Shown: positions 18,937 to 52,353 of the stretch, in pieces | How the letters are laid out: each line of letters opens with the position of its first letter | Position numbering within the stretch: position 1 is the stretch's first letter | DNA from: Physcia stellaris | Taxonomy: Eukaryota; Ascomycota; Lecanoromycetes; Caliciales; Physciaceae | Assembly (NCBI GenBank): GCA_018902385.1 | Contig: JABSSW010000080.1 | Span: 62,001 to 126,000 of the forward strand | DNA: 64,000 bases | Reading direction: 5' to 3' | Translations under genes and position numbers: made by a program | The notes under the pieces: generated by a model | The model's database searches: none | What the model was told of the DNA's origin: nothing | Seen by the model: only the letters and a program-made list of their open reading frames with translations

Positions 18937-18993
18937 TGTTGCAATTGCAATTGCAATTGTTCATTTCAATGCAATTGCAATTGCAATTGCAAT
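18937..18993. repeat. Microsatellite of TTGCAA/CAATTG units
   Basis: Two runs of the 6-bp unit GCAATT (three and four copies) are separated by TTCATTTCAAT. The unit is close to palindromic. No function is inferred. Confidence 0.8.
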
Positions 18994-22921: not shown

Positions 22922-23999
22922 ACAAAGTTTTTTTTAAAAAAACTTCCGGGCCTACTTGTGTTTTTAATGATAATCAAACAAATTTTGTGAAAATGAATAT
23001 TGAAAATACAATTGCGAAAACGTTTGCAAAAAAATTGAATTTCGAATCGTCGATTTTCAAAAAAATTCGACGACAAAAAATTATTTGATGACAAAAACAC
23101 AAAAAATAAATTCGTTGAAACATTCATTGAAAAATTGCATATTGAATTTTCTGCAAATTGCAATGCAACGAAAAAAAAATTGACGATTTCAATGATTTTT
23201 TCATGTGACGTTTAATTTTTTATTAAAAATAAAGTTTTTTCGCATTGATTTGCATTTCATTGTTTGAATTCGTTTCATTGTCAAAACGTCATACATTTAC
23301 GTAAAAACGTCGAAATTATTATTTTTTTGCATTGAACGAAAGTCATTTTCATCATCATTAATTCGTCAATGTTTTTTTTTTAAATTGACAACGTTTTCAC
23401 AATGAATTATCAATGTTCGTATAACATTTTTGTTTTCAAAAATAAAAATCGTTTTCATTATAAATATTGTAACGATTAATTGAGTCGAGTCATAATCACG
23501 TGATTTTTCAATCGAAATGAAAATTATTTATTTCATTTTCATTCAAATTATTTTGTTTTCATTTTCAAATTTCAACACAATGACACAAAAATAATATCAA
23601 ATATTTGTTCACAAACATTTTTTCGTTCGTATTAAATTTTTTGTTTTCATCGAAAACAAATCAAAAAAATACGTTGAAATTTTTTCAAATTGAAATTGTT
23701 TGATTTTTTATTAAAATCATTTTTACATTTTTTTCATTGACACAAATGAATTTTTATTTTTCAAATTGTTTGAATTTTTTTGTTTAATTGTCATTATCGT
23801 TTTTTTGTTTTACATAATTTGACAAACAATCAAATCGTTTCGTATCACAAACATTGTCGTTTTTTCAATCGAAAACGATTTTCTCAAAACGTCATGAAAT
23901 TTAATTCGTGTTCATTTCATGTTGTTATAAAATTTTCGCTTATCAACGATTCATTGTCGAATCGAATTTTTTTTATTACAATTTTATTTGCGTAAATTA

Positions 24000-26900
24000 T
24001 CATGACGATTATTGAGAAATTCGATTTTATCATTGCAATTTACGATATTCGAATTGCAATCAAAAATTTTAACGTTTAACACGCGATCAATGTTCAACGA
24101 CAAAATCGTTACGTTTGCAACACATGTGAAATTGTTTTTCGTAAAAAAAACGTCAAAACAAAACATTTTTTAATTTATATCAACGATCGATTTTGAAAAT
24201 GTCAACAATATAATCGTTTTTTTCGACGTCGAAATCATATGAATAAACATATATTAATTCATCAAAAAAAAAATGAAATTTCAATTTATCGTTTTTCACA
24301 AAATTGCATATGTGTGTAATATCGACGTGTCAATGTCGCAATTGTATTTACGACATATCGTTTTTCAAAAATTGTTACAAAAATTTCGAACAAAACATAA
24401 TCGTCGTTTTTTCAAAAATTTTTGTTCATTTTGCGACGTTTTCATGTTTTTGAACGAGTCGAAATGATTTATTTTCGACGAAATTTTGCAATACGATTTT
24501 TGCATTGTGTTTTATCAACGTTTACATAATAAATTCGAAATTAACGAAAAACGTTTCGTGATCGTATGCGATTCATGTAAAAAACATTCACGATTTATGT
24601 TTCGAATAAAGTTTTGACTTGACGAATTAATGTTTTTTTTTCATCGATTTCGAACTTTTTTATCGTTTTTGAAATTCATGACGAATTTGAAAAAAAACAC
24701 AAAATGTTGACGATTTTCGAAATAATTGAGTCATTTACAGAATCGTTTCAAATAAATTGTCACAATTTATATTTTGTTCAATTCAATTCACGTTTACGTC
24801 AAGATTTCATGTACGTTTTCAAAAATTCGCGAGTTTTGATTTTTTATTCGAATATTATAAAAAATTTTTTTCAATCATTTTTTCAAATTCTCGATAAAAA
24901 TCAAAATGCACAAAATTTCACAATTGCAACAAATTGATTGAAAATTCACAATCGATTTTTGCAAAATTACATTGTTTCGATCATCGACATTTTCATTGTC
25001 AAATTTTCAATTTTCGAAATTTTCGATTCAAATGAAAAAAATCATGTCACAAATTCGATTTGATCGTAAAAATCGATTAATATGATTCGAAAATTCATGA
25101 CGAGAATTTTCGTTTCGATCGATTTTTTGAAAAACAAAACATAATTAACAACGATCGTTGATATTCAAAAAACGACAAAAATTTTAAAATTCGCATATTT
25201 TTTTGATTTTATTTTTACGAAATAAAACATTTTCGAAAAAACGAATTTTTTCATTTTAAAATTGTTTTTAAAAACGCACAATATAAATTTAATTGAATCG
25301 TTTCGCATTTTCGTGACGATCATTATTAAACAACATGAATGTACATGCGTGCGAAAACATTTCGCATTTTTCAAAACATTAACAAATTGATGATCGAACG
25401 AAAAAAACGTCAAATGATTGAACGTTTGTTCACGACGAAATTATTAAAACAAAACGTTTATGAAATTCACACAATTATCAACGAAAATTTAACAACAATC
25501 ATTTCAATTCAATTTCGAATCGATGTTATTTATTGAATATAAACGAAACAGAAAATCAACATCATCATGAAAACAACATATCGATTTCAATTGTTTTTCA
25601 TCACAATTTTTCGAAAAATGATTTGAATACGTCGAAATTTTTGTCAACACAGACAATCGCGACATCATTTCGAAGTAATCGATTTTGAAAATTGTAATAT
25701 ATTATCATTTTCGATGAAAAGCATTTAAAATTTATTTTTTGCGAAATTCGAAAATATTCGATTTCGAAAAATTGAAAAAAATGATAAAACGAATGAAATT
25801 TCAATTGAAAAACGTCATTCATATTCATGTTTTATTTTGAATTCAAAAATTCATATTTCAAATAATCGTTGAAAATTTCATTCGAACAAACGTTTCGAAC
25901 AAAAACAAAAAATTTGAATTACACGTTTTAATCATGAAACATCAAATTCACACATGTCGTTCGAATATGTGTCGTAAAAAATTGATTTTCGAAACACGAT
26001 GCAAAAGTGAATTTTTTCAATCATTGTCATTCGTAATCGAAATCGTGAATGATAATCAACGTTACATTTACAAACGATTCAAAAAAGAAAATCGTTAAAT
26101 TTTTTCATATAACGTTCAAATGCTTTTGATTTGAAACGCACACATGAATATTCAATACATCACGAAAATTTATTTTGTCGTTTATGTCAACAAATATGTC
26201 ATCAAAACAAAATTCAACGAATTGTACAATTTATTAATTCAGAACGTCATCAAGAAACATCTAATGATTCGAAAAATGAATTTCATGAAAATCATAATGT
26301 TAATGTTAAATTACGAAATGTTTCGATGCAATAAAGTTGTGAAATATTTCGATACGACGTTGTCGAAAAAACGATTCGTTTTCGTGAAATTTCTTTGACA
26401 ATTAAAAAAAGATTTATTTGAACAAGAAATAAAAAAAAATGAAAAATTTGATTTTTTTTACAAAAATTCAATCGAAAAGTATTTCGTTCGTTTTTCAAAT
26501 ACGTTTTACGATCAATTGACGTATTTTGATTATCATTCGCAATACAATTTGACAAAATCGATTTCAAATTTTCGAAACGAAATTATGAATGATGTAAAAA
26601 ACATTGTGAAAAAAAAAACAAATACGATTTTTTCATTGACATTTCATTCAATATAATTTGATTATATTAACATGTTTTGATTCGAAACATCGAACGACGT
26701 TTAACAAACGACGAAACGTTTTTTTACGAAAAGTTTTTCATGATTCGATCATGACGAACAAAAAACGAAATTCGAAAAATTATATCGAATTTCACAATTT
26801 CATGTTATCGAAATCATTTCATGACGTTTTATTCAAACGAATATCGAAATTTACATTTTTGAATAATTTTTCAGATAATTCGACGCGTCGTAAAAATCAA

Positions 26901-28290
26901 CAATCTTTATTTAAAAATCGTACATCGTTTGTTTTTTGAAATATCACAAAATCAAAACGATTGCATTCGTCAAAGATTTTTTGAAATGCAAATCAAAATT
27001 CGATCGATTTCAATGTTCGACGACAATTTAAATTTCGATAAAAATCAATACGTAATATATCAACGAATTATCAGCAATTTTTTTTCGTTTACAATTCGAA
27101 AATTTCGAAACACAGATTTTTTCGTTACGAGTTCAGAAAAAACGAAAAAACTTTTTTTATTACACATTCTCGTGACATGATGCAATGATCGTAAATTAAA
27201 AATTTTAAAAATGATTTCGATCGATATTGTCGTTGAAAATATAAAAAAAAAAAATTCACAACAATTTGCACATCAATTTTCAAAAAATTCAAATTATAAA
27301 TCATTGTTGTCGATATATTTTGCATGAAAGAAACGATGAAAAATTTCAAAAAAATCAAAATTTTCATCATTGATGAGATTTTCATGATTAACAATGAAAT
27401 GTTCAATTTTGTTTCGAAATTGTTCGTCAAAATACACAAAAATGTATTTGCGTTTGAAAATTTTCATGTTATTGTTTTTGACGATTTTTTGCAATTATTT
27501 TCAATTCGAAAACGTCAAATTTTTCATTTTTTTGTTTGAAAAATTTTTATTTCGTTGTTTTTAAAACGTTCGAAAAAACACGATAACGATTCGAAATTCG
27601 AACGTTTTTTAAAAACAATTCGATTCGACAAAATTATTGACGAAATTATGAATATTTTTCATCGAAAAAAACAAAAGTTTCGAATCGAAAATTTCATTCA
27701 TATGTGTATTTTTTTTTTCATTTTCGAAAAGACGAAATTTTTCGTTTGAACGCGTTATTATTACAACGAATTTGCAATTTCAATGTTGTCGTTCACAAAG
27801 TTGAAAATAAAAAACGAAACGAAAAATTAACAAAATCAATTTTCAAACAATTCGTCAAAAAAAGCAATTTGCTCAATGAAATTGTAATGATGTTTGAAAC
27901 ACGAATGATGTTTCTAAAAAACAATTTTATATCACGAAATTTGATCAACGACAATTGCGAATTGATCACAAAAATGAACGACAAAGATTTTTTTTACGAT
28001 CGTTTTTTCATTGATCGAACGCATAAAAATTAAATTATTTTTTTCGACGAAATATGATTACTAATTTTTTTTATTCAGAAATTGTATGTAATTTTTCACA
28101 CAAATTACAGAATTTTATATGAGATTTTTTACATTCGAATTCAATTTTCGATTTTAAACGTTTTCGTTTTGATCGTTCACAAAATTCAATCGTTCATCAT
28201 GATCGACATTTTCATCAATTTTGACAACAACATATTCGTTTTAAATCACGTTTACACGATATTAAACAAAATTCAACGATGAAATCAAAT
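24000..28290 (+). pseudogene. Decayed Helitron (Rep-helicase transposase)
   Basis: Fragments in shifting plus-strand frames follow the order of a Helitron RepHel protein. The HUH motif is seen as HIH at 25820-25828 (context KNVIHIHVLF). The conserved AHMNIQY block is at 26138-26158, followed by YVNKYV. The Walker A region is degraded to VTSSEKTKKLFLLHIL at about 27120-27175, where family members have G residues. Walker B reads FIIDEIFM at 27363-27386 (family IIDEISM), then HVIVFDDFLQLF. A helicase C-terminal block VHKIQSF lies at 28175-28195, followed by YTILNKIQR ending at 28282. Losses are G-to-E/K and S/P-to-F, as expected from C-to-T change on both strands. Several stops are TGA where the family has Trp, for example just before the NAHMN block. 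The termini (5' TC, 3' CTRR hairpin) were not found. Confidence 0.8.
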
Positions 28291-30994
28291 GTTCATTTTC
28301 GTCGTATGCAAAGAAATTTTCAAAATGAACGAAAAAACAATATCGAAATATAAACGTCTAGAAAATATTGTCAAAAAAATGTTTGACGTTTAAATGAAAT
28401 CGCAATTTTCATTTTTGACGAATCGTTTTCAATTTTTTCAATTTTTCATTAATTTTGTTATTATTTGATTGTTTCATTTCAAATTTTGCTTCATCATTAA
28501 TACGAAACACATTTATGATTCATTAAATTTCAAAATCTTGATTTGCGATTTTGATGCAAATTTGAACATAATGAAACAAATTTGTCGAAAAAACAAATTT
28601 CAAAACGAATGATTACAATATGTGAACATCAATATTCAAATGCGAAATTGTTTCATTTATAATCATTTTTATGTGACAATGTTTAAAGTCACGAATAAAC
28701 ACAATTTTTACATTTTTATATTTGAATTGCATATGTTGTCAAACGATTTTTCGCAAACAATCATTAATCATAAATAAAAAAAAATTCTATTAAAAAAAAT
28801 TAAATTCGATTAAAATTCATGTTATGTTTCAAAATTGATGTCAATCGATTGCGATTTACGAAATTTGATCATTCATTTATTTATTTCGCGACATTTTTCT
28901 CATTCAATTTTTCGTTTTTTTATCATTTTTAGTTCGCATTTTGTTTTTTTTGCATTTATCTTTTTCATTCAATCAGTTTTTCGCATTTTTCAGATTTTTC
29001 GCAACATTTACAAATTGTTTCGTCGTTGTTTTATTGCATTCAATGTTTGCTTTTCAGTTCATTTCGCGAAAATTCGTATCAATTAATCAATATTACGATA
29101 CGATCTGAATACGAATTTAGTTTGTTTGAAATTTTCAAGAATTGTTTCATCGAATTTCTATAACAAAATTCAAAAAATTTCGATTTGAAAAGTTTCGTTT
29201 TTCGAAATTTATGTTCAAAAATCAATGTTACGAAATTATTTTAATTTTTGAACGTATTACGTTTAGTCAGATTTAATATACGAGACATGCGCAATCAGAA
29301 TCAAAAAACAAATATTAAAAATGATTGAAAAACGACGAGACAATTTGATGTTGTTGCGAAATTGCAAAAATTCGATTATTTGATCGACATGTTGTTGTGT
29401 GAATTATTTTTTCATATGAAAAATACATGTATATGATTATTAATTTCGACATGTCATAAATAATTTGTAATTGACGTGTAATGATCGTCGTCGTCGTCGA
29501 TAAAATCGAGTTTATTTGAAATTTTGTCATTTTCGCAAAGAAATTTTTTTTGCAAAGTTGATTTTCGCGACATTATTGTTTAATTAAATCAAAATCAAAA
29601 ATCAATTTTGCGTTTTTTCGTTTTTTCAAAAAAATACAATTTGAATCAAATGTCACGATCATGCGCATTTTTCGAATTCGATTGCAATTAAAATTTACAA
29701 ATGTTTCAATTCGTACGTTGTAAAATTTTCAAAAAATAATAACGTATTGTTCGAAAAATTGTGTAAATACGAAATATTGATTGTTCGATTGTTGAAATTT
29801 CGAATTTCAAAAAAAAAAAAGTTTTCGCATTCGATTTCAAAAAAATCGAAAATTTTTTTTCAAATTGCGTTGAAATGATATGAATCAATTTTGAGAAAAT
29901 AATTGTGACATATCATTTTGTTTTCAGTATTTTTTATGAAATCAATTGATTTTTTTTTTCAATTTGACTTTAACATTGATACGAAACATATTTATGTTTT
30001 ACGATTTTTTCGAAATCAAATCTGTAATCGTGATGAAAAATTGAATTTAATAAAACAAATTCGTCGTGAAACAATTCGAATTTGAATATGACGAATTTCT
30101 TAAAATGTGTGTGTTGATGAAATTTACTCAAAACGTGTGCATTATTTCAATTTCGTATTATTATTGATATTTTCAACAAACATATTTCGATTTTCATAAA
30201 TTTTTATACGAAAAAGTTGTAAATAATGTGTCAATTTCGATTTTTAAATGCAAATACAAAATGTTCAAATATTTCGTTCAAATTGCTGTGAACTGAAACG
30301 AGTAAATTTCTCAAACAAAAAATATTTTTTTTTTCTTTTTATGTCGTATTCGAATTTTGAGATTCTGCTTGTAAAATATTCAGATTTTTTTGTAATTATC
30401 GAAAATTTTTTTAATATCATTATTTTTTTTGAAATCAGATTTGTACGATTGCAATGAATTATCAAAACGAATCGTAAATTTAACGTATGTAAAGTTGATT
30501 TCATCGAATTTTGAATAAAATAATTTTTTTAATCGCATTGTGATTGAAAATAAATTTTCGATTGTTTGTGTTGTTCATATTCATTCGATCAATGATTCAT
30601 TAACGTGTTTTCACGATCACATTTGATTGCAATTTTTTTTTTTTTTTTTTTTTTCATGCATCACGATGTTTAATCAAGCGAAATTTTGAATCATTTGTAA
30701 ATTGTATTTTTATCGTATTTATGAAATGTGTGTTAATTGAATCAATAAATCACAATGAAATCGCGATTTTCGTCAATATCGCGCAGATAAATAAAATCAC
30801 GAAAAATCGAATAACACAATTTGACGATGAAATAATTAAAATTTCGTTTTTTTTTTTTCGATCGTTTTCAATTAATCAATTTTTATGACACGCGTTCGAT
30901 GATTTTGCATTTTGCGAATCGAATATTCGTCGATTTAACGCATTTTCAACAATTGCAAACGTTGATCATTCAAATACGCAAATTTATTTGAGTT

Positions 30995-31258
30995 TTGAAA
31001 AACAATTGTTTTGACGTCAAAAAAATCGTTGAAAATTCAACATTGTCGTTTTGCGATCGATACGCGATCACGAAAAAAAACAAAATCAATTTCGTTTTTT
31101 TTCGATGCGTTCAAACACGACATCGTTTCGAAATTTGCGAAAATTGCGTATTCAAACACAAAACGTCGAATTGTTCATTCAATAAATGTTTTCAAATTTC
31201 AACGTATAAAATATTGAGATTTTTTCAAATTCGATGCGTGTTCGATTCGAAATCGTGA
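30995..31258 (+). pseudogene. Possible decayed Cys-rich frame
   Basis: The frame contains CENCVFKHKTSNCSF and an upstream FRCVQTRHRF. This spacing of cysteines (C-x2-C-x8-C) resembles the C-terminal zinc-like motif of a family common in fungal accessory genes (DUF3716 type). The resemblance is short and the frame lies in hypermutated DNA, so this is only a suggestion. Confidence 0.2.
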
Positions 31259-32432
31259 AAATGATATTTTAAATCATCGTCACAAACGTAAAATTCGTTG
31301 ACGAAAAAAAAAATTAAAATTTCGATCAAAAATGATGAAAATCATTTTGTCGCAAATTTGTTTTTTTCGCGACGATCATTTAACAAACGTCGTCGATTGT
31401 TGATTTTAACAACGATCGCGACAAATGATCGCGCGCGATTCAATGAAAACGATATCGACGACGAATTATTAAATAATCGTTCGAACGTCGTCGACGATTC
31501 ATCATTATTTTTGTTTCAAAACGAAAAAAAAAACGAAAACGAAAATTTTCAATTTGAACAACATCATGACGATTACGACGTTGAATTCGATTCTGATATC
31601 GAATTTAATTCAAATGATATTGTTTTTATCATCGAAAAAACAAAATCGACAGAAACATTTTTTTCAAAACGAAATAAATTTTGAATTTCAATTTCACGAC
31701 GATCAATCGTCGTAAAAAAAAATTTATTTTCGTTTTTTAAATGTTTTCGATTCGAATGAATGCGTAAAATTTACGCGACGTCGAATCGAACTGTGACGAA
31801 AAAAAAAACGAAAAAAAAAAAAAAAAAAAAAAAAAACGAAATGAAAAAATAAATATGTCGAATGAAAAAATAAAATCATGTTATGAAAATTTTTGTATTG
31901 AAAAACGATTTCATTGCAAAAATCGTTATATACGATGTTGCAAAAAAATTTCAACAATTTTTGAAAAATTTATTTTGATTTTTTTTGTCGTAATCATTTT
32001 CATTGTTTTTTTTTTTTAATTTTTGCAAAATTTATCGAATTGATACGATTAAACATTTTGTTTCATTGATTCAACGAAAACAAAATTTCATTGTTTGAAA
32101 TTCAATTGATTTTATCAAACAAATGTTTTTTCAATATCATGTTTTGACAGAAAAAATTTATGAAATGATTTCGATTGCACATATTTTTCGTTTTTATTTT
32201 TCGAATTAATCACGTTTTAACGAATTTTCAATCAACATAAATGAATTGTACGAATATTTTTTTTTTTCATTATAACAATCATTGATTCAAATTTCAAAAT
32301 TGATACACGTCAATTGCAATCAAACTGATTTTTTCATTCATTTTGTTTCAAATCATGATGTTGACAAAGTGAAATTGATGCAAATATCGACGAAAATAAA
32401 TTTTATTTCGATATCAACTTTATCAATTCTAA

Positions 32433-32584
32433 TGTAAAACTGAATGATCGAATGATCAATTAGAAATCGTCAAAAACTTAATCATTAATACGCATTTCAA
32501 TGACATTAAATGTTAAAAATCATGTAAATTAGCACTCGATAAAACAACATGCAATCAATGATTTATTTATTCAAAAATTTTACA
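32433..32584 (+). repeat. Left LTR, 152 bp, heavily mutated
   Basis: It aligns without gaps to 34631-34782 with 18 differences, all transitions. In 17 this copy carries the T or A. All 18 sit at CpT/CpC or the complementary ApG/GpG sites. About 14 CpA, 9 TpG and 4 CpG sites are unchanged. Confidence 0.9.
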
Positions 32585-33266
32585 ATTATGAATTCGAATC
32601 ACGCTTATTGTTGCATTCAATACGTGATTTAATTGATTATCAATATTTTCAACATTCGATTGTTTCGACAAACTAACACGAGAAATCAAAACATCGCGAA
32701 AACATTTTTGTGTTTACATTCTTTTACAATCAACAACAATCAAAAATTTTTTTTTATTTATTCGTTCGTTTAACACGATGACGAATACGAAACGAAAATT
32801 CAAATTGAATTTTTTCAAAAATTGAAACGCGTGATTTTCAATCGTAAAAATTAAAATCATCGAATATTCGATTTGAAATTTTATCGACTCATTCAAAAAT
32901 ATTCGATCAACGAGCAAATTTGAATTCGTGAAATTCAATTTTGACACACAACAAAATGTAAATTTCAACGAAAAACATGTTCGATACAAAATAGCGACAT
33001 CGAAATACAAAAAAAAACTTCAAAACTGAAAAAAACAAAAAAATTTCATGACAAAAATAATCGATCACATCTACGATACAACAACGATTACAAATTTCAA
33101 CTTTATTCAATTCGTTGAAATTCATTCATGAAACGTTTTACGCGCTTTAAAAGCACGTTTTGCATTCATCGATTCAGTTAAAAATTTGAAATTGAAACAA
33201 CAATACAATCGCATGATCAAAAATTCATTCAATCGTTAAAACATCGATGTTTGACTAGACGAATAT

Positions 33267-34073
33267 TTGAAAATGTTGATTTTCGTTAAACAAACGAAAA
33301 TTGTTGAAATCATCGATAACAAACGAACGTATCGTGATTTTTTACACGCAATCGACAAGATCGCATTTATTTTCGTTGAAATACAATTATTTCAATTAAA
33401 CATCGTAACGAATCACGAAACACGATTTTTCGTTTTCATCGAAATCTTTCGTCAACACATACGCATGAAAAAAGTTCGAAAAAAAAAAACGATATTCAAT
33501 TCGACATTTGTTGTTGACGAAAAACGTCAAAAAAAAAACGAAAACAAAAACGATAACAAAAATACAAAAATCGTAAAATTTTTCGTCGTCATTCACGTCA
33601 ACGTCGATGTCATAAAATCAGATTATTTTTTTCGATTTTCATGAATTTTGAATCATGATTTCGACATTCACGTGATCAACAAAACGATAAAACAACGTTT
33701 TCAAAAAAAACGAAATTGTACAAACGAATCGTCGATGATGTCAAACATGAAATCATTTTTTATTTTGACATATGATCGAATACGTTTTAACGTCAACATT
33801 TTCACAAACAAAAGCACGATGAAATTATTGAACGTGTGTTACGTATTTGATTTCATGATCAATATCGTTGCAAACAACATTTTTGAAAATAAAAACGTGC
33901 ATTTCAATGCAAAGCATCGTCATTTATATCGAAAAAAAATTCAACAAATTTTTTTTGTTTTCGTGTCGAGAATAAATGCACATTACGTTTTTGAAAATAA
34001 TAGATTTAAATTTGAAAAAGTGAACATTTTCGCAATCATCGTGCGAAAAAAATTACTGTCGTTGAAAAAATGA
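33267..34073 (+). pseudogene. Decayed Copia-type gag/protease region
   Basis: Two adjoining open frames (33267-33644 and 33648-34073). The second contains LLNVCYVFDFMINIVANN followed by NVHFNAKHRHLY and NAHYVFENN. This matches the order of the Copia protease-to-pre-integrase region, where L-x-N-V-LYVPDF and an H-rich segment are typical. The upstream frame is basic and could be the end of gag. P-to-F and G-to-E/N replacements fit the mutation pattern. No integrase or reverse transcriptase follows before the right LTR. Confidence 0.55.
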
Positions 34074-34135
34074 AATTTACTGTCGTTGAAAAAATGAAGT
34101 TTATTGTCGCTGAAAAGATGAAGTTTATTAACAAA
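34050..34135 (+). repeat. Tandem repeat, 24-bp unit, about 3.3 copies
   Basis: Units read TTACTGTCGTTGAAAAAATGAA, then TTACTGTCGTTGAAAAAATGAAG, then TTATTGTCGCTGAAAAGATGAAG. G and C contents rise from the first to the third copy, so the mutation load falls towards the right end of the block. Confidence 0.8.
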
Positions 34136-34159
34136 AATAAAATGTTTACATCAGCAACA

Positions 34160-34560
34160 ATATCAAGAAAGTCGATATTCTGAACAGAAATAATTTCGCG
34201 ATCAATAGTTTCATCAAAATTTATATCAAGAACGTTGAAAAACGTTTCGCTTATTTTTTCATCTATTTTATTTCAAAAATTTGCTCAAATGCAATCAAAA
34301 CTCATCAAGCAATTTTGTTTGATTGTAAATGATTTACATCGCATGTTTGTTGAAAAATCGAAATCATTAAATTTGCAACAACATCAAAATCATCGTTTTT
34401 TTTCGCACATTTTTGACATTCGTCAACGAAATCTCATACAAATTCGCATCATTTTTATTTTTCATCGAAAAAATCGATCAATCAGAACGCATGAATTACA
34501 AAGATTGCGAAAACGTCGAAAACGAAATTTTTGCATCAATGCATGATTCGATCAAATGAT
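34160..34560 (+). repeat. Segment shared with 53806-54240 in inverted orientation
   Basis: The plus strand here matches the minus strand of 53806-54240. Shared runs include GAACAGAAAT, CGCATGTTTGTTGAAAAATCG, TTTGCAACAACATCAAAT-like and GCATCAATGCATGATTCGATCAAA. In translation both give IVNDL-RMFVEKS. It could be part of the transposon coding region or captured DNA. Confidence 0.7.
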
Positions 34561-34630
34561 CGATTCGCATATTCATAAATGCAACATCAAGAATAAAATG
34601 AAATATCAAATATTTTCTTTTAAAAAAATG

Positions 34631-34782
34631 TGTAGAACTGAGTGATCGAATGATCAATTAAAAATCGTCAAGAGCTTAGTCATTAGTACGCATTTCAATG
34701 ACATTAGATGCTAGAAATCATGTAAATTAGCACTCGATAGAACAACATGCAATCAATGACTTACCTATCCAGAAGTCTTACA
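34631..34782 (+). repeat. Right LTR, 152 bp, lightly mutated
   Basis: Same length as the left LTR and followed by the matching TCTAA. It retains CpT, CpC and ApG sites lost in the left copy. It ends 70 bp before the start codon of the HET-like/ankyrin gene. Confidence 0.9.
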
Positions 34783-34852
34783 TCTAATTTTTTGTTTTTC
34801 CCGCTTAGAACGCTGTTGCGTATTTCACGTCAATGTCTTGTTTGACTCAGAA

Positions 34853-37708
34853 ATGTTTGATCTAAGGAGATGGTGGCCAAGCTATTTTGCTACTGAGAAA
34901 GACCTCACTTGGGTATCGCCACCTCGAGAGCTTATGCACCGATCCGCCAAGGAACAGCTCGCGCTGTGCGTCAATAAGAAAGCCGAGTGGTCTTCAAGGA
35001 AAAGCGGCTATGTCGCGCTTTCTCATGTGTGGAGCGATGGGTTACAACGAGATAACGAGCATAATGGACTGTTGGGTGAGAAGTTCCGTGCTATTTTTGC
35101 ATTGCTTGACAGTCGACATATTGAGGCCGAATGGATATGGACGGACGTCCTTGTGATTGTACGTGTTCTCGAAGTCTTCTTGGCCTTCTCTAGGTTATTT
35201 ATTTCGGTATAAGACATGTTGCGACGTCGTCTCTACAAGTTATTTGTCTCATGTAATTCAACGCTTACACAAGTTTGGAACATCTGACTCGGAAGTTTCA
35301 CAGCCAGGTGGAGACCCAGCCAAGGCGAGTTCGGCGGATGAGATACTGACTATCGATATCATAAACACCCTCCCCCTTGTCTATACCCGTGCAGATGCAG
35401 TTATTATCGTCGATGCTCTGGTGCTTCAGCTCCACTCAGATTACTTAATTGACGTTGCAGTTGCTCTGGTCTGCGGCCAATGGACTACCCGAGTATGGAC
35501 ATTTCAAGAGATCAAGCTGGCCCAACGGGCACTTGTGCTCACCGCTACTGGACATCATACGTACAGCGACATTGTGAATCAACTCAAAACCCTGGCAGAT
35601 GCGCAACCTGATCACTATCGTAGTCTGTGGCTTCGTTTGGCAACTCTTGAGAAGAATGAGGAAGTCGGACTATCGATCCCAGATATAGTCATGGCGTGCG
35701 GCACGCGTCGTTCTGGAAACGATATTGACTACGCTCGAGCCTTCTTTCCCGTCCTTGGCCTGAAGTGGGAATACGGCATGACTCGAGAAGAAGGCATGCA
35801 AATGATTTACAGGTCGCAGAAGCACCATGCTGCACGCATTGCATGCTTTTATGGCGCTCCTCGCATGAAAATCAACCTTGCGTGGGCCCCTTCCTACTTA
35901 AATGGACTGGAAGGGGTGGTGACAGACTCGCTCGAGTGGGATGATCGAGGTATCAGGGGTGACTGGTATCTAGTCCGGATTAAACATGTTTTGAAGAAAT
36001 TTCCACATTCTCGGAGGACAGCTTTGAATCTTGAGCTAGATTGCTCAGGAGACACAAGTATGGAGTGTGCCTTGGCTGCTAACGAAGATCCAGAAACGAT
36101 CAAGGCTATGGAGTCAGCCATCGAGCGAGGGCAGACATATGTCATCTCACTTGTGCCATCGGAAGATGTAATTGCAGCGGAGTGGGTATGTCTTCTCGAC
36201 ACAATCCTTCCTGTTTGAAACTTGTCTAGGCCTCATAATCTGCATATGATCCGTGCCTTAGGATTGAGATTCTTCTCGAGATTAGAAAAGCTGATCCTAA
36301 AATTCACTACAGGCTCGTCAAGCTTTAATAATCGAGAGGAATGAAGTTAACGAGCACGACGGATTCGAGGGAGCTGTCTATTGTGCAGCAGTAATCTTGA
36401 GTCAAAATCGACATCAGGAAGATAAGAAGTCCATACTACTTCGACATGGCAGTCCAGTGCATGACGATGGCTTGAGCAACGCCCTACGATACTTCTGGCA
36501 CACTCAGAAAGAGTCAGGTCTCCCAGCTACTTTGACACGTCAGGATGGGGAAAGTGAATTGCATGCAGCTGTACGCACTGGCAACGTTTCGATAGTCGCG
36601 AAGGCGATGGAAGAAGGTGCTTCAATTGGCGAATTCGACAAAAGGGGCTTGACACCAGTGCACACCGCCGCTGCAAGAGGCGAAACCGAAATTCTCGAGT
36701 ATTTGCTGAAGATAAGCCCGGATACAGAGATCAAAGGCAAATCTAACAACGGAGACACACCCCTCGCTCTAGCAGCCAAACACGGCCAAACTGGCTCCAT
36801 CCAAATCCTTCTTAAGTCTGGTGCGAACATTCACGCTCGCGACCAGTCCGATTACACACCCATATTTTACGCCGCCCTCGAACGCCATCCAGAAGCCGTG
36901 AAAGAGCTTAGTAAGTGTTTCCGGTAGTTCGCTCTTTCAAGGTTGTATCTGTTTCCAGACATGGAGTGGCAGTCGTTCTTTCCAAGAGACACATCTTGTC
37001 ATAGCACAGCACTTTACCTAAGACTCGAATCGCTGACTCCGGAACATCTCTCCAGTCTCCAAAGGAGCGAACCCAAACGACTCCACCCGCCTCGGCGAAA
37101 CCCCACTCCTCCTCGCCTGCAGCGCCGGCTCCCCCCGGCTCCCAACCATCCAAGCCCTCATCGAAGGCGGCGCCTCCCCAAACCCTCCCAACCCCCTATC
37201 TCATCGCACGCCGGTGCACGAAGTCGCAGAATTCGGCACCGTAGAAGACCTAACCTATCTCCTCTCCCACGGCAGCGCCCCCGACGCGCGGTCCTCTGAC
37301 TCCTACACCCCGCTCTTCTACGCCATCCAGCGCAGTAAAGCAGATTGCGTCAAGCTCCTCCTCGACGCGGGCGCCGATCCCAATATCCGCTTCCGCGACA
37401 TGGCGACTCCTTTGCATTATGCTGCCCAACAACCCAACTGGCAGATCATGCAGCTGTTGTTGCAGTCTCCGAAAGGCGTGGATGTAAATGCGAGGACGGA
37501 GAGGGGGGGGTTGACGCCGTTGCATGTCGCTATGAAGGAACAGAAGACTATGACGCTGGTGAAATTGCTGCAGGAGGCGGGTGCAGATGGCGATATTGAA
37601 GACAAGACGGGGAAGACGCCGGCAAGGTATCTGCTTGAGAATAGGGAGTTGCTGCAGACGGTGCCGGAGTTGACAGTGCCGGAGTTGGCGGCGGCGGTGG
37701 AAAAATGA
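34853..37708 (+). CDS. HET-like domain protein with C-terminal ankyrin repeats
   Basis: Four exons (34853-35158, 35304-36185, 36313-36910, 37056-37708), GT-AG and phase-consistent, giving 812 residues. The N-terminal HET-like block contains YVALSHVW (residues 53-60) and EWIWTDVLVI (ending at 102). Exon 2 starts PGGDPAKAS and continues with IDIINTLPLVYTRADAV, colinear with the HET-like gene at 14209-15501. PVLGLKW is also shared. From about residue 470 to the end there are eight or nine ankyrin repeats (for example GLTPVHTAAARGETEILEYL and ATPLHYAAQQPNWQIMQLLL). HET plus repeats is the layout of non-self recognition/cell-death proteins, though no NACHT or NB-ARC domain lies between. The relative at 14209 has about 110 more residues before the HET block. 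Here that part would fall in or beyond the LTR element, so the 5' end may be truncated. Confidence 0.8.
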
Positions 37709-38283
37709 TGGATTTGGGTTCTGGGCAGCGGCAGGACTAAGACGTTTTCCTGTTGTGGCTTCTGGGTTTCAGCTTATCGGTAGGTACGAGAAGAGAAAGA
37801 CTTCGTCTTGGGGTTTGGGTATAATAGACGGATATCATGTTGCGGTGTTACAGGACAGGAGGACTCACTCCATGTAGCTCTTTTCACATCCCAAAAACCC
37901 CCTGCCAAGTATACCAACAAGCATACCAACCACTATACCAACCACAGAAAAACACAGAATTGGATTCGAAAACCTTCGTTTCCTCCGATACTACGACATT
38001 GGGGGTAGCTATATAAAAGGGGGATGGCTCTAACGGAAATGAGGGGTGCCTGCATGAGTCCTCTGCCTTATCAAATCAAAGCACCAACACCATCACCACC
38101 ATCATGCATGATGTGCAAAAAAATAGCTGCTGACATCGGACCGATACCGCAGAGAAAATTACGTCAGAACAAAGTGCAGCAGAAACAAAAATTCTCTGCT
38201 ACAATTTCATCTACCATTAGTTTCACGTAGTAAGGGCGGTAATCTGGTTTTCTTTCTGGTACCTTGCAGAATTAATTTATACC
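37709..38283. other. Intergenic, nothing recognised
   Basis: A 575-bp spacer between two plus-strand genes. It should hold the promoter of the methyltransferase gene. A short tandem TACCAACAAGCATACCAACC-like motif occurs near 37910-37945. Confidence 0.5.
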
Positions 38284-39409
38284 ATGGCCATTTCGGCTGC
38301 CAGTCAGGCTGAGAATGCATCAGAATTCTCCCAAGGCTGTGGCCCAGAAACCGCCTTCACGGTAACCTTCCCACAAAAAGATGACTCGAGTTCTCCACAA
38401 CAAGATGAAGAATACGCAGAGGTACACATAGGAGCGAAGAAGCAGATATTTCGCATACACGACTACAATGCCATGTACTCTCTGCCGGGGCTTTACAAGT
38501 AAGTGAACATTTTTCGAGCACATTATTGCCTGCTGGATTAGAACTCTGTCACAGGCACATCGTCTACGAACAGCTAGCGTGCGACTCCCCCAGAGTCCTA
38601 GTGCAGTTCCTGAAGGAACATGTAGCTGCAATCAATGTCTCTTCGGCTATCATTGATCCCCTGGACATTCTCGACGTCGCTGCGGGCAACGGCATTGTGG
38701 GCGCGGAGCTCCGCCAACAACTCGCGGAGAAACCTGGAATCCGACGTCTCATCGGGACCGATCTGCTCGATTCAGCTCGCTCAGCTGCCCTCAGGGATCG
38801 GCCAGACGTCTACGACGACTATGTCGTTGCCGATTTGACTCAACCACATGGATCAGGACTTCCCTCGTCGTTGGATCTCGTCACTATCTGTGCGGCGCTG
38901 GGCCCTGGCGATGGCGACTTGCCGCTCGAGGCCGTCGACGGAGCCATTATTCTGTTGCTTGAAGGCGGGCTGCTCGCGCTGACCGTCAATGCAAGAGGTC
39001 AGAGTGCTGCGACTTCCCTTCGGTGGCAAAGATTTTTCGACAGTGTCAATGGAAGCGGTGGAAGCCATGTAAGACGTTTTTCTTATTCCTCTCAGTAGAC
39101 TTCTCGTCTTCAAGCTTACTGCTCTATATCAAATCTAATATACAGTGATGCTGACTTGGAATCGTACCAGTGGGGCTGTTTGGAGGAGGTGGCGCGGAAG
39201 AGCTATAAACACCGGAAGAATGTGCAAGGGAAATGGATTGAGTACGTGGCGCTCATATACAAGAAGAAGGGACCAGAGGCTGTTGATGGTATGTAACATG
39301 ACTAAGAAGAAATTTAACGTGCCTAGAGCTTCAAGAGCGACAGATCCAAAAGATGATGGCTGCGGTCTCAAGATTTCTCAAACTACCAGTTCCTGTGGCT
39401 TGTGCCTGA
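38284..39409 (+). CDS. Class I SAM-dependent methyltransferase
   Basis: Proposed exons are 38284-38498, 38555-39068, 39171-39288 and 39327-39409 (309 residues). Motif I is ILDVAAGNG at residues 110-118, and GTDLLDSAR supplies the post-I acidic residue. The predicted strand order follows the Rossmann-like fold (ADLTQPHGSG, LDLVTICAALG, GGLLALTVNARG). A C-terminal block KSYKHRKNVQGKWIEYVALIY closes the domain. Substrate unknown; it resembles small-molecule methyltransferases near secondary-metabolite or accessory genes. The junction between exons 2 and 3 is uncertain: the CAG at 39145 would put coding-like residues DADLESYQ in the wrong phase with the GTAAGA donor, whereas the CAG at 39170 is in phase. 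Exon 4 is inferred from a GTATGT donor and an in-phase CTAG acceptor. Confidence 0.75.
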
Positions 39410-40657
39410 TTGAACTAGAGCGATTGAGTACACATGGTTCCTTTGTCACGTGTTCCCGCAGTCCGGCTCAATTGACTCCAGGCCATGCATTACTTCTGGA
39501 TCGCCCTCATGGGGTGTTCCAAAACTAGTTCCATTCGAAAGTTGTGCACATCTTCGACGACAGTGTTGAGAACTACTTGATGAGCTTGGAGTTAGCAAGA
39601 GGACTGATATTTAGCAGGACTGTGCTGTTCTAGGATTGCATCGGCGAAAAGTTCTTGCTCGAACATAAAATGCTAACATCGCGTGATGACTCTATCCATC
39701 AGACAACATGGAGGCTTTCGCGAGCATCCTGCAAGCTATGATGGACCGGTACAATAATCATAACAACAGCTCCTTTCTCGGGCTGCTGGTCGCTGTGCTA
39801 CATTCTATGCTTGTTTCGGAGAAAGTCATTGCGGATCCCGGGCACAAAAACCTGCGTTTACCGAGCTGAATTTTGGCCAATTACGCTATCATTGCTTAGA
39901 TGACGCATTATCGAAATTTCGAAAAATTCATCCTGTTTTGCCAAAGAAAAATCCCAGAGCCCCAAGTTGAAGGCTTCACGCTTCGGAGCGTGGGTGCGCA
40001 TACCCTGCTGGGAGGTGCGCGTACCAGGAAGGGGGGCGACTGGCAGTCTACTTGTAACCACTCCAGCGCCATTGGCCGATGGGAAAGAGATGCCGTAAGC
40101 ATCCTCCCGCACTTGCACAGTGTCATAATGCATATGGATGTCTGGCGTATCCCTTGCTCGCCCGTCTGGCCGCACCTCGGTATTGAACCATAATTTCGCT
40201 TATACAACAAGGTAGATATAACCAAAAGTATGAGGCATGTCCGGGTTGCTACCAGACTGACGAGCGACAAAGGGATAGGTTAGTTCCTACATTTCCTTGT
40301 TTCAAATTTGTTTGTACTTGTTTCACCTTGAGAGATTGTTGGAGGAAAAAACCGTAAGTGTGCCCTCAGGACAAGAAGATCTACCACGGCTGATAAGCAA
40401 TTGTTTGAGGGCTTTAGACACTCGCGAATTTTGAGAGGCCCCGACTCACGATTAGGGCAAAGCCAACGGCCCTGACATGAAACGGCGCATAAGCGATGAT
40501 GACAGCGCATAAGCGATAATGGCGCATCGACTAAAATACACATATATCTCCGAAGGAAAATCTTACAAGAACAAAATGCGCCTGCACTGATCCCCTGAAT
40601 CCAAACCCATTTCAGAGTCGATTTTAAGCGCCATCAAGTTTCATAGCATCCGCGCTC
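39410..40657. other. Intergenic, nothing recognised
   Basis: This 1.25-kb spacer has overlapping short frames on both strands only. A small tandem motif, GCGCATAAGCGATGATGACA-like, is repeated at about 40485-40530. Confidence 0.5.
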
Positions 40658-41199
40658 ATGTTCCTCGCCTGCGCACGCTTCTTCACCCTAGCGACATTCC
40701 TGCTATTCATTCAATGCGCATTTTCACATCCAGCCAATCATGTGGGTCAACCACTAAGAATCATCGTCACCGGCACCCAGTAAGGCCCTTTGCTACTTCC
40801 CATATCTAATTCCCTAACAGCCAACCTACCCACAGCTCCAACACAAGCCACCACCTCACCTCCTTCCGCCTGCAGCTAGACTACGCCCGCTTCTCCCAAC
40901 AGCGCTCCATCTCCCCCTCCAGCGGCTCAGCATGCATCGCCGCCACCATCACCGCAGCGCGCCGCCACAGCCCCAACGAACAACTGCCCGCAACGGGCTT
41001 CAAGATCGTGGATCGTGGCGTGTGGCTCGAGGCGGGCGCTTACCATCATGATTACACCTGGGGCATCCTTGTTGATACTGTGGAGTTGGTCGAGGCGGAG
41101 TTGGAGGCGAGGGGCTGGTTTAGCTGTCGGTGGAATATTGAACGGGTCGGGAATGCGGGGAGTCCGGGGTGGTTGATTGGGTGGGGACGTATGAGGTAG
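40658..41199 (+). CDS. Putative small secreted protein of unknown family
   Basis: Exons 40658-40779 and 40836-41199 give 161 residues. The start MFLACARFFTLATFLLFIQC followed by AFSHPA is a good signal peptide with cleavage after about residue 22. The donor is GTAAGG. Two in-frame acceptors exist (CAG at 40820 or 40835), differing by five codons. The mature part contains KIVDRGVWLEAGAY and EARGWFSCRWNIE and no known domain. Near the 3' end the alternative frame stays coding-like beyond this stop (VGTYEVDGGEGMAGVFLMEA), reachable if one G were missing from the GGGG runs at 41156-41172. The true C-terminus may therefore be longer. The next gene, 41608-42198 on the opposite strand, may be a distant relative. 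Confidence 0.55.
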
Positions 41200-41607
41200 A
41201 TGGTGGGGAGGGGATGGCGGGCGTGTTTTTGATGGAGGCCGAGCTTGGGGAGCGATGGGGGGTGGTGCTGGTAGGAAAACTATGTCACACCGCGATTTAA
41301 GTCTTGAGGGTACTACCAAAACAATAGATTTCACGCATGATACAATAATATTCTGTAGCTTCACGAGAATAATATCGCGGTGAAGGTGCAAGTCTATATT
41401 ACAGTATACAGTAGAGAGCTGGCCCCGGAGATGTTTCAAGCCTCCATGGTGCCAAGACGGGAATTCCCGCTGATTAGATAAGGGTGCTGACCCTACGGGT
41501 CCTGAACACAGAGCTGCATAAATAGATTTTCTGAATCCCAATTGGAAGACACTCCATTGACGCAAGCCGCGATATACAGCACGGACCAAGACCAATTCTC
41601 AGATCAT
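41200..41607. other. Intergenic between convergent small genes
   Basis: About 400 bp. The first part (to about 41300) may be coding in another frame, as noted for the preceding gene. The rest shows nothing. Confidence 0.4.
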
Positions 41608-42198
41608 TTATTCATCAGACACCGACTCTGATGCACTCTGCACGTACTCTTCTCCGATCAAGTTCCCAAAGAACGACCATCCACCCGCGGCAGCCATGTA
41701 TAACCACAACCTCACCCAAGCCAACCCATCCAGACCCAATTCATCCACCATCACCCGCACCCCCTCCCCTCTCACCTGTTTCCAAGCCCCACTCATCAGG
41801 ACCCTCACCAGCATATCCATCACCACAAACGCAACCTCAAAATACGCCCCTCCGCTCCTGATAAACATTCCTAGACCCTCTATGATCGCCCCCAGCAGAT
41901 CAACGCTCAACCCCGCGCAAGGATGCACGATGATCCTCGCCCCCGGCGACTCCGCATGGCCCTTCGAGTCCCAGTGCAAAGCGGTTCTTGGGGCGGAGGG
42001 CAGCGCGCGGATGTGCTGCGCCCATTGCCAGAAGCGCTCGAACGCTTCGATGAGCCAGATGCCCTCGGCGTAAAAGTCTGCGCCAAATGACCCGCAAATG
42101 GCATAGTACGCTTTGTCTGGGATTTCAGCGATTTTGGAATCGCCGCAACTGACAAGGAAAATATGGAAGTGCTGATAACATGGGTGTACTAGTTGCAT
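41608..42198 (-). CDS. Hypothetical protein, 196 residues
   Basis: A single open frame of ordinary composition and high coding appearance, convergent with the gene at 40658. It contains GADFYAEGIWLIEAFERFWQ, ARIIVHPCAGLSVDLLGAII and ARVRLWLYMAAAG-like hydrophobic stretches, with an acidic end SASESVSDE. There is no classical signal peptide at this ATG; an upstream exon could supply one. The pattern of a polar N-terminal half, then I-V-x-G, D-x-x-(G/E)-x-(I/L)-(I/V)-E and an aromatic segment loosely resembles 40658-41199. Paralogy is only a guess. Confidence 0.5.
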   Translation of the reverse strand: MQLVHPCYQHFHIFLVSCGDSKIAEIPDKAYYAICGSFGADFYAEGIWLIEAFERFWQWAQHIRALPSAPRTALHWDSKGHAESPGARIIVHPCAGLSVDLLGAIIEGLGMFIRSGGAYFEVAFVVMDMLVRVLMSGAWKQVRGEGVRVMVDELGLDGLAWVRLWLYMAAAGGWSFFGNLIGEEYVQSASESVSDE

Positions 42199-43813
42199 CC
42201 GTGAACGTATGACTCAAGTATGATGCAAAAGGAGGCAGTCAAGAGACAATTGCTCAGATGCAACGGAATTTTGGGTTTCCCAAAGTAGCGCCCCCAACCT
42301 CTGATCGTTGAAAGTTTGGGAAGATTGATCACCGAGAGTGAAATCTCAGCAAGACATGATATATTTCTGCGTAAGTGCATAGTTATCGGATGATGTCTGA
42401 TCCGATTAGAGCATGATGGCCCCTTATCAGCTCTCTCCTTGGGCAGGCAGATTGTACTTTACAGCAATCCGGTAATCAGACTGATAGTCGAATTGAGCTT
42501 CGAACAACATATTGGGCTCGACGCCAAGCTTCGAACATAGCTCGACACTTCTATCATGCCTTGTTCCTGTTGTTCTGCTGAGCAACGCGGTTAGCGATCA
42601 TGGGTCCCGTTTGGAATTAGCGGCAGACGCTTATTATTATTTTCTGCAAATTCTGCACCGATAACATATCACAGTTGAGACCGCTATACATTGATTTGAT
42701 CCTTCCTATTCTATAGGCCTCAAATTCGGACCTCCAGCTCGTGCGCTAATCATCCTGCCTTTGGCACGTTGCAGGCCCATAGGTAAATATCACTCCTAGC
42801 ACTTCCACCTCTGGAGTTCCAGCACTAAGACTAATCGTGGGTCAGGACCTCACTAAAACTCGGGGCAACCATGACATTCCAACAATCAGATACTGGAAAG
42901 CGTAGTCCTTGAGTTGAACTTCGAAGACAGAGAAGAAGACCAAAAAAACGAATCAACTAAATTTCGGAATGGTATCTAGCATTTTGACGATGAATGATAA
43001 CTCTTTCTGATGAACGGTTCCAGAAACTATATCAGAGCAGAGAATCATGAAAACCATTCCGTAACCAACATTTGTCATGTTACCTGCACATGCTAGGATG
43101 GTATGGGCAAGGTCTCAGGCGTAGAAGTGCCCTGGGAAATCAATGGTGCAGACACAATCATTAGGCAATCACACACCCCGCACAAGCTGAGACATGGCGA
43201 GTGGCTATCGGCAGCTCGCATTCTCTAACAACGCCTGGTTATCAGAGCTCGGTGTCTGATCCAAATATGCCCTATCTTTGAGTCCCGGACCCGCACCGTC
43301 CGTGCCGCGTATGTAGTGCTGCAGCGGAGAGACGCCTTGCCGTCTTTGGATTATGATGCATACCTCCAGACTGCAAGTGGAGGTTTCAGAACTTCTGATA
43401 GACCCAGATTTGGCCTGAGCTTTGTGGCGTAGAGAATTTTTATGCAACCACCACTGCAAAGGACCTCCAAGACTAGAAATATTAAGCGAGGTCAAAACGG
43501 TGACCGCGAATGGGCCACCTACCAACAGGGAACCGGACAGAAAAGCCCCGGTACGTATGGCTGCATCCAGTACCCTAATAAATTCGAGAAATTTCGAGGT
43601 ATCTGCTTGGTATCTGTTGTGGGTGTGAATCTCACAACGATGATTTGAATTGACTTGCACCCTCAACCTCTTACCAGTATTCTTTACCGTCTCCGATCTG
43701 ATCTTTGACTTGCTGAGCCAGAGACCAAAAATCGGGATGTAAGAAATCCACAAGTTGATGAATCCAATATTTGAACCCCGCAAACTACGAAGTAAGAATA
43801 GAAAACCAAGAGA
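42199..43813. other. Intergenic, nothing recognised
   Basis: A 1.6-kb stretch. The longest frame (minus, 43205-43897) shows no domain and overlaps the first exon of the next gene, so it is not called. It probably includes the promoter of the 43814 gene. Confidence 0.5.
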
Positions 43814-45108
43814 ATGAAGACAGTATCCCCCCTTGAACCGCACACGCCGGCCAAAGTTGGCAAGACAACTTTTCTTGTACGCAGATTCACTCCACACATG
43901 TCTTGCTACACTAAGCTAAGCTTTGTCCATAGGCATTTCTATGGACCGGCGTCGGAGTATCGCTTTGCTTTCTAATATTCCGTTTGCTGGTCAGATTCAA
44001 ATCATTCCGGACGCTGTACCTCGACGATTTCCTGGTGATCTTGGCCTGGGCCATGCTGCTTGCATTTAGCGTTTCCTGGCAAATCGGATCGACAGGGCTT
44101 TATGATCAATACGCCGTCTCATCTGGGCAGAAGCCATTCACGCCCGTTTTCATCGAGAGCGATATCCATTTCCTACACGCAACCATGGTTCCAGCCATCC
44201 TCCTATTTTACAGCTGTCTTTGGACTGTCAAACTCTCCTTCATGGTATTCTTTCGAAGACTCTTCACACATGTCAGGGGTCACAGGATCTGGTGGTGGTG
44301 TATTTTGAGCTTCACAGTCCTTACCTGGGCTGCTTGTGTCGCCGACTACAACTACCAATGTTCTTTGGGCTCTCCTGAAACAATTTTTGGTGAGTCTTGA
44401 TCTATTATCACATGTAAGGCTAATCGGGTAAAGGTTATTGTGCTTCGCTAACTGCAATTAAATGGTCCAACCATGCCTTTTACGGAAATTGTGCTGCGGA
44501 CGTTCTCACAGATTGCCTTAGTGGGTTTTGTTCTGTTTTGTAGAGTAATACATAGGCTTACTGAATTATAGTAATCTCGATCCCTGTTATGATGCTGTGG
44601 AACACCCGGATTGCTCGCCGGCAGAAGATCTTACTCATGGCGATCTTTTCAATGACAGTGGTGGTAATGGGAGTCGCCATCGTCCGGGTTGCCGTTGTGG
44701 ACTTTAGAAAACGAAATGCAGATATCAGCTGGCTGTATTTCTGGAGCAGCATCGAGATGACAACCGGTGCGTTAATCCCGCCTCTATAGCTGATCAAAGT
44801 CTGTTATCTGACTTCTACCCATGATAGCTATTGTAATCGCATGTATCGCTTCATTTCGTCAGCTCTTCGTGCACGCCAACAGTCAACGAAAAGTTCGAAA
44901 GCCTAGACGCAGCAAACCTGATTCTCGCAAGGGTTTTCTCTCCTACTTTGGCTTACGCAGCAAGACAACGAACAAGAAGCGGACCGGTGATGACAGCGGA
45001 AGCAAACATGATCCTGATAATTGGAGTAGTCGTACTCATATTGTCCCCTTGGATAGTATTCATATCGACTACCATCTGTCGGTTCCCGTCAGTAGACTCG
45101 GGCAGTGA
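43814..45108 (+). CDS. Rhodopsin-like (PTH11-type) integral membrane protein
   Basis: Five exons (43814-43876, 43933-44389, 44434-44520, 44572-44766, 44828-45108), all GT-AG and in phase, give 360 residues. The first exon encodes MKTVSPLEPHTPAKVGKTTFL and joins FLWTGVGVSLCFLIFRLLVR. The signature RFKSFRTLYLDDFLVILAW is typical of the fungal 'rhodopsin domain' family related to PTH11. Hydrophobic segments follow at SDIHFLHATMVPAILLFYSC, WWWCILSFTVLTWAACVADY, ADVLTDCLIISIPVMMLWNT, LMAIFSMTVVVMGVAIVRVA and IAIVIACIASFRQLFV, so about seven spans. The C-terminal tail is basic and cytosolic. No CFEM domain is seen. Family members are putative surface receptors; ligand and pathway are unknown. The short first exon, with an intron containing CTAAGC just before its AG, decides the start. 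Confidence 0.82.
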
Positions 45109-48917: not shown

Positions 48918-49173
48918 TTCTTTCATTGGGGGTACTCTTTGACTTCCGTCCTTGTTTCGACAAAATGTCATGCAAACAAAAGCTGGAGAGATGGATCCTG
49001 GATTCGGGGCGGAAAGACTTACTGAGCTCAGCGTATGACGATCTAATATACCCGTCACTTGTATGCACTGCCTATCACATTGGCACTTCTCTACAGAATA
49101 AAGGGGACCCCACTAAGGATTCGAGCAACCAGTTAGCATCTTCCTCCGAAGCGTATCCAAGGTATCCACCTAC

Positions 49174-52346: not shown

Positions 52347-52353
52347 GGGCCAG

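Follow-up and report, generated by a model that had tools for sequence, protein, structure and literature searches.

Probable RIP-like mutagenesis of transposable-element copies directed at CpC and CpT in the lichen-forming fungus Physcia stellaris

Results

Copies of transposable elements in Physcia stellaris carry dense C-to-T changes, for which RIP-like mutagenesis with the 3′ specificity CpC > CpT >> CpA, CpG is, on the sequence comparisons given here, a highly probable explanation. The hypermutation is present in repeated elements and not in normal-GC DNA (three families and 20 sampled stretches), the distribution by which RIP is recognized. Alignments of mutated with unmutated copies show the C-to-T direction, changes on both strands, a rule set by the 3′ base with a mild 5′ effect, and the order CpC > CpT >> CpA/CpG.

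The genome searched comprised 44.0 Mb in 147 contigs; the published assembly is slightly larger, at 46.57 Mb (184 scaffolds), its mean GC is 43.3%, and the words RIP and repeat-induced are absent from the main text of its description (PMC7513301). The window, i.e. the whole stretch of 64,000 nt that was analysed, is G000:C80:62001-126000.

The LTR element in the window

A complete LTR element of 2,350 bp, with TG...CA LTR ends and a 5-bp target-site duplication at both flanks, lies at 32433..34782 (Table 1). Between its two LTRs, each 152 bp long, there are 18 differences, every one of the C/T or G/A type, and by the 3′ base 16 of these are CpT and two CpC; the first-pass annotation had reported the same 18 transitions, every one at CpT or CpC. 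If the 53 LTR cytosines were equally likely to change, the probability that all 18 differences fall on a C followed by a pyrimidine (CpY) would be 1e-10. The unchanged Cs, both strands counted, are 23 CpA, 8 CpG and 4 CpT, in agreement with the ∼14 CpA, 9 TpG and 4 CpG given earlier, where the four unchanged CpT went unmentioned. By itself the LTR pair reads mainly as a CpT signal; that CpC is hit as well, and faster, is apparent from the wider comparison below.

Table 1. Features of the window (positions from its first nucleotide; dinucleotide counts are for both strands)
Feature	Position	Strand
Normal-GC control block, CpY/CpR 1.09	1..15900	
AT-rich block, CpY depleted: CpC 3, CpT 49, CpA 560, CpG 458	16250..20750	
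AT-rich block, CpY depleted: CpC 0, CpT 167, CpA 1466, CpG 1296	23000..34630	
Target-site duplication TCTAA, upstream copy	32428..32432	
Upstream LTR (TG...CA), heavily mutated, 5 CpY left, T state at 17 of the 18 differing sites	32433..32584	+
Internal region of the 2.35-kb LTR element, mutated	32585..34630	+
Downstream LTR, adjoining normal-GC DNA, less mutated, 21 CpY left	34631..34782	+
Target-site duplication TCTAA, downstream copy	34783..34787	
Normal-GC control block, CpY/CpR 0.97	35000..53000	
AT-rich block, CpY depleted: CpC 0, CpT 196, CpA 1155, CpG 1046	54500..64000	

Three of the five full copies (L001, L002 and L004) have one AT-rich flank and one flank of normal GC. The LTR at the normal-GC flank keeps more CpY than the other LTR in each of them (21 versus 5, 26 versus 6 and 27 versus 4, respectively). 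In L003 and L005, with normal GC at both flanks, the two LTRs keep 16 and 20, and 15 and 24 CpY. Judged by the CpY kept, the asymmetry tracks the flanks, and LTRs bordering normal-GC DNA have been mutated more weakly.

Direction and context of the mutations

Positions 36–1085 of the element were found in all 27 copies chosen from 72 matches. C/T variation occurs among these copies in 97 of 141 CpA columns and 73 of 141 CpG columns, mostly in few copies, and the CpT columns are nearly all T; from copy to copy the number of CpT ranges over 3–88 and that of CpA over 119–141. Since such column counts are unclear on direction, they were replaced by a comparison with normal-GC references: copia1 (C8 and C42, relatives of the element at 32433..34782), copia2 (L068) and a PF00078 family (L056). 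Three further reference loci, L057–L059, had no matches. Out of 46 mutated loci given, 36 yielded 50 segments (300 columns or longer, 62% identical or more, and without overlap on the mutated locus) and the remaining 10 had no passing segment.

In these 50 segments from three families, where the counts are non-independent trials as copies within a family share history, the reference C had become T at 7711 of 8223 CpC (94%), 8445 of 10252 CpT (82%), 930 of 10644 CpA (9%) and 550 of 9900 CpG (6%) sites; the opposite change, T to C, was seen at 686 of 40532 sites (1.7%). The order CpC > CpT >> CpA > CpG holds in each family. Thus, CpA, the preferred site of Neurospora-type RIP, is not the main site in the three families compared, and neither is CpG, the main site in the methylation decay of truffles and basidiomycetes. 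The rule proposed initially, C followed by a pyrimidine, holds in all three families and in the AT-rich DNA sampled elsewhere in the genome and is absent from normal-GC DNA. The same annotation had quoted CpC as usually the least favoured context in other fungi; here it is the most favoured, ahead of CpT.

CpC is a direct target, because CCA (2557/2700) and CCG (1672/1756) equal CCT (2219/2333) in mutated fraction; it is lower for CCC (1221/1385). Loss of CpC as a by-product of CpT targeting was thereby ruled out, the second C being spared in CCA and CCG. In L032, which has the fewest mutations among the 27 copies, the counts are CpC 207/244, CpT 154/324, CpA 10/346 and CpG 13/328. Expressed as rates, −ln(1−f), CpC exceeds CpT 1.6–2.6-fold and T-to-C 74–259-fold in four copies.

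Ordinary CpA-type RIP, in which CpA is exhausted and the remaining variation between copies lies at less favoured CpT sites, deserves virtually no credence. CpT-rich signals of that kind do have precedents: CpT changes outnumber CpA changes in Neurospora Tad1 as described for RIPCAL (PMC2621366), CpT-to-TpT dominates alignments of RIP-capable fungi in a 2021 study (PMC7882544), and CpT signatures are reported for Magnaporthe and Botrytis (PMC4352252). Saturation of CpA is contradicted, however, by the normal-GC reference copies, relative to which 91% of CpA sites are unconverted; in addition, in the window bins of 20–30% GC CpA stands at 1.30–1.38 and TpA at 0.41–0.42 times expectation.

CpA is not fully immune: its changes rise in the most mutated copies, to 31 of 119 sites in L021 (the most mutated of all) and 62 of 427 in L066, and a short segment of L002 that aligned poorly has 17 of 61. 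The slow CpA mutation depends on the next base, with CAC 276/2180 and CAT 315/2852 against CAA 186/3204 and CAG 148/2332. CpApC and CpApT are therefore mutated about twice as often as CpApA and CpApG, perhaps by a second, minor activity.

The 5′ base has a small influence over all copies (0.91–0.97 for CpC, 0.80–0.86 for CpT), whereas the 3′ base shifts the mutated fraction from 0.06 to 0.94. A mild effect of a 5′ T is visible in L032 (TCT 61/106 versus ACT 22/60; TCC 65/71 versus GCC 55/71). Both strands are mutated, as illustrated by CpT in L032 (48/111 and 82/148). Strand-run tests on four copies with light mutation gave weak, mixed clustering, the same-strand concordance being reached in 36 (L032), 5 (L033), 119 (L035) and 91 (L028) of 1000 shuffles.

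These figures bear on a further alternative, an APOBEC/AID-like deaminase editing element cDNA or single-stranded DNA, which we regard as very improbable. Enzymes of this type select their target by the 5′ base, and no strong 5′ preference was found over all copies; mutation of both strands also argues against them. Retroelements, C-to-T hypermutation, the 5′-T effect in L032 and 11 matches to the PF00383 deaminase profile in the genome are what such editing has on its side. A separate C-deaminating activity, one of two agents named in the first-pass annotation, is accordingly disfavoured, since the rule reads mainly the 3′ base. One of the PF00383 matches (G000:C64:178666-179121) holds four TGA within the match and could be a mutated duplicate, contain introns or use another code.

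Three loci of intermediate composition were left unaligned: L060 (CpC 5, CpT 45, CpA 69, CpG 48), and L061 (CpC 20, CpT 45, CpA 46, CpG 62) and L069 (CpC 57, CpT 85, CpA 98, CpG 82, yet four TGA in its match), the latter two being less clean than the other loci.

Composition of the window and of the sampled genome

In the 23 window bins (500 bp) at 20–25% GC, CpC is zero on either strand and the ratios of observed to expected counts are 0.12 for CpT, 1.38 for CpA and 3.65 for CpG. Bins of at least 40% GC are near expectation (CpC 0.91–1.06, CpT 0.99–1.12). Composition was similarly analysed in 20 other contigs, with one 2-kb stretch from each: all four 500-bp bins below 30% GC lack CpC and have one CpT in total, two bins at 30–35% GC hold 8 CpC and 39 CpT, and bins of at least 40% GC have CpC at 0.93–1.21 and CpT at 1.01–1.14 times expectation. 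CpY depletion is thus confined to AT-rich DNA in the DNA sampled. A finding that would have spoken against the proposed rule, CpY depletion in unrepeated gene DNA, was not seen in the normal-GC DNA of the window and the 20 stretches, normal-GC DNA being a stand-in for gene-bearing DNA inferred from GC.

A genome-wide mutation bias, or an old composition with no targeting, has hardly any plausibility in view of the values near expectation at 40% GC and above. Normal-GC element pairs (see below) also show little or none of the CpY bias, and beyond the low GC itself we found nothing in favour of this explanation.

From the mean GC of 43.3%, with ∼49.5% for normal and 25% for AT-rich DNA, roughly a quarter of the genome may be of the CpY-depleted kind. 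A normal-GC island at 20750–23000 of the window, inside AT-rich DNA, escaped mutation; it carries an open frame of 252 aa, for which there was no Pfam match.

RIP indices based on CpA, with thresholds as in PMC7882544 (product > 1.15, substrate ≤ 0.75, composite > 0), scored one of 128 bins (500 bp) of the window as positive, so by this measure Neurospora-type RIP was not detected there. The AT-rich blocks have product indices of 0.40–0.48 and substrate indices of 1.34–1.42. The CpY/CpR ratio, with a cut-off of 0.35 of our choice, flags 52 of the 128 bins.

Stop codons and amino acid composition

By the genetic code, TGG is the sole codon that one CpY change can turn into a stop, namely TGA, the CpC lying on the opposite strand; CpA changes would yield TAG and TAA. 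Stops in PF00078 reverse-transcriptase matches (150 rows of 527 candidates) are TGA 250, TAA 33 and TAG 3, and in PF07727 reverse-transcriptase matches (137 rows) TGA 401, TAA 101 and TAG 3; TGA makes up 651 of the 791 stops taken together. Out of 39 mutated loci given, 33 were aligned to unmutated frames, and all 33 contain stops: TGA 229 (188 facing Trp), TAA 28 (15 at Trp) and TAG 5 (1 at Trp). TGG is kept at 3 of 254 Trp positions in these loci. As the TGA stops mostly face Trp, CpC targeting is needed, and the stops derive mainly from TGG-to-TGA changes.

In 14 mutated loci, the longest open frames, which need not be the coding ones, contain at most 2.6% Pro, 1.3% Gly and 0.6% Trp, against 4.4–7.2%, 4.9–7.9% and 1.3–2.3%, respectively, in five unmutated frames. 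A protein search with one mutated open frame returned five proteins, four of them without Pro and Gly and the fifth with one Pro and four Gly; such proteins are at most suggestive of the same pattern in other lichens. Two metagenome proteins (P0236 and P0237) lack both Pro and Gly but contain 5 and 9 Trp, respectively; TGA in AT-rich contigs of this sort may have been translated as Trp during gene prediction.

Duplicates without mutations

The mutated families are multi-copy. Among the normal-GC loci that match reverse transcriptase there are nonetheless two near-identical pairs: the C8/C42 pair (L071/L072; 90.7% identical over 2.0 kb and 97.0% over the next 3.1 kb) and the L057/L058 pair (94.9% over 3.5 kb). 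CpY bias is almost nil in both, with a slight CpC excess in the 2.0-kb stretch of C8/C42 (47/378, other contexts 17–25 of 501–530). Hence, not every duplicate is hit. In Neurospora-type RIP such 95–97% identical pairs would be expected as targets, and their escape is hard to square with an efficient process. Their insertion may postdate the last sexual cycle; otherwise, the process is weak or no longer active, or it has triggers besides similarity. The sequenced culture was derived from ascospores (PMC7513301).

A normal-GC Copia-type element of the copia2 family (G000:C69:112437-117947, covered in part by L068) has two end matches of 264 bases with 100% identity; other long copies of the family are 68–75% identical to it. 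With the second match at the place of the other LTR, the identical ends indicate that at least one element moved recently.

The unmutated pairs would also be compatible with a slow process, namely passive decay, where repeats are methylated at CpY (e.g. by DIM-2) and methylcytosine deaminates slowly with no active RIP step. Passive deamination of methylcytosine usually raises the rate about tenfold, and the CpC to T-to-C ratios reported above (94% converted against 1.7% in the same alignments) are far higher, which disfavours this explanation; CpG, moreover, is hardly mutated. A DIM-2-type gene is present, and according to a 2026 review DIM-2 of Neurospora methylates mainly non-CG sites with a CpT preference (PMC13297926). 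All in all we consider passive decay unlikely.

Methyltransferase genes

A PF00145 profile search identified three genes: a DIM-2-like gene (C3, ENV motif), a RID-type gene (C5, EQT motif) and, on C6, a shorter gene with an EET motif. A 306-residue part of one of these methyltransferases is 100% identical to a P. stellaris protein. The C6 gene is of the DmtA type (513 residues, L009:850-2505). The RID/Masc1-class gene, with introns placed by eye, is open across its catalytic motifs, as are the DmtA- and DIM-2-type genes. Homologues of RID and DIM-2, for which the first-pass annotation suggested a search, are present, together with the DmtA-type gene, a single Pre-SET match and the PF00383 matches.

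The methyltransferase tree has 49 rows (6 of 55 chosen rows were dropped, the catalytic domain being missing or short), an arbitrary root and open deep forks. The C6 protein shares a clade with Eurotiomycetes DmtA-type proteins (support 100/96), beside Heterodermia and metagenome proteins. Proteins of Teloschistes and Xanthoria group with the C5 protein (99/88), and the short paralogues from Lecanora, Psora and Teloschistales have a different position (98/93). Among the matches listed for the DmtA-type protein there is no identical Physcia protein, the best named match being from Heterodermia (72%); the gene may be missing or differently predicted in the public annotation.

We know of no CpY RIP in DmtA-bearing Eurotiomycetes, so the DmtA class alone is no explanation of the rule. 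From the presence of the genes, we infer that a cytosine methyltransferase-type enzyme encoded by the RID-, DmtA- or DIM-2-type gene would be responsible, with the extra DmtA-type gene as the first candidate. Of the two agents proposed initially, the better fit is the RID/DIM-2-like enzyme of altered specificity, given these genes and a rule that mainly reads the 3′ base.

Discussion

The process that we propose would convert C to T on both strands where the next base is C or T and leave CpA and CpG nearly untouched. Repetition would be its trigger, and by analogy with Neurospora it may act before meiosis. A more specific scenario, which we offer tentatively, is that a RID paralogue of the DmtA type, retained or acquired by Physciaceae lichens, turned the 3′-base reading of the RIP machinery from CpA to CpC > CpT, that transposons are broken chiefly by TGG-to-TGA changes, and that such non-CpA RIP is perhaps widespread in lichen fungi, where it is scored as absence of RIP because the indices count CpA.

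RID-dependent RIP of Neurospora crassa is similar in converting C to T on both strands to near saturation of element copies, and a RID-type gene is also found here. The context order there is CpA > CpT > CpG > CpC as given in PMC5496416, in contrast to CpC > CpT >> CpA, CpG in P. stellaris. In Trichoderma reesei, too, the dinucleotide preference is unlike that of Neurospora, as seen in cross progeny, but it is described there as CpA ∼ CpG with CpC the least (PMC5496416). CpT is frequently mutated, as here, in Magnaporthe oryzae, Botrytis cinerea, Sclerotinia sclerotiorum and Anisogramma anomala (PMC4352252, PMC10998396); these reports place CpT beside CpA, however, whereas P. stellaris spares CpA and CpC leads, and the term CpC is absent from their main texts. 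Monilinia has CpC-to-TpT double mutations reported beside CpA-type RIP (PMC8959702), and sparing of CpA is not described in the available text of that paper or of PMC7882544.

The lichen fungus Cladonia rangiformis resembles P. stellaris in its sharp ripped and unripped compartments and its RID and DIM-2 homologues; its ripped DNA has a local GC peak near 16%, compared with 20–30% in P. stellaris, and the terms CpA, CpT and dinucleotide are absent from the main text of the report (PMC12542154). The DIM-2 methylation and DIM-2/DIM-5 mutation pathway of Neurospora is paralleled by the DIM-2-type gene and the one Pre-SET match, and its methylation is likewise described as favouring CpT (PMC13297926). 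It differs in that here CpC comes first with little CpA mutation, and the Physcia pattern is known from DNA sequence. A 2025 survey of 1,239 fungi presents CpA preference as shared by RIP-like defences (PMC12543289). Among the open-access papers listed in our searches, we recognized no report of CpC-first or CpA-sparing RIP.

A near-complete reversal of the CpA preference would show that the specificity of RIP can evolve, and enzymes of the DIM-2, RID and DmtA types make a natural set for finding the residues that read the 3′ base. A practical consequence is that CpA-based indices can label a strongly hypermutated genome as RIP-free. A rule sparing CpA and CpG would create single-change stops only from Trp codons, an unusual constraint on the disabling of elements by a genome defence. 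The pattern reaches beyond the window: in old element copies of this lichen-forming fungus CpC and CpT have mostly been converted, and CpA and CpG largely spared.
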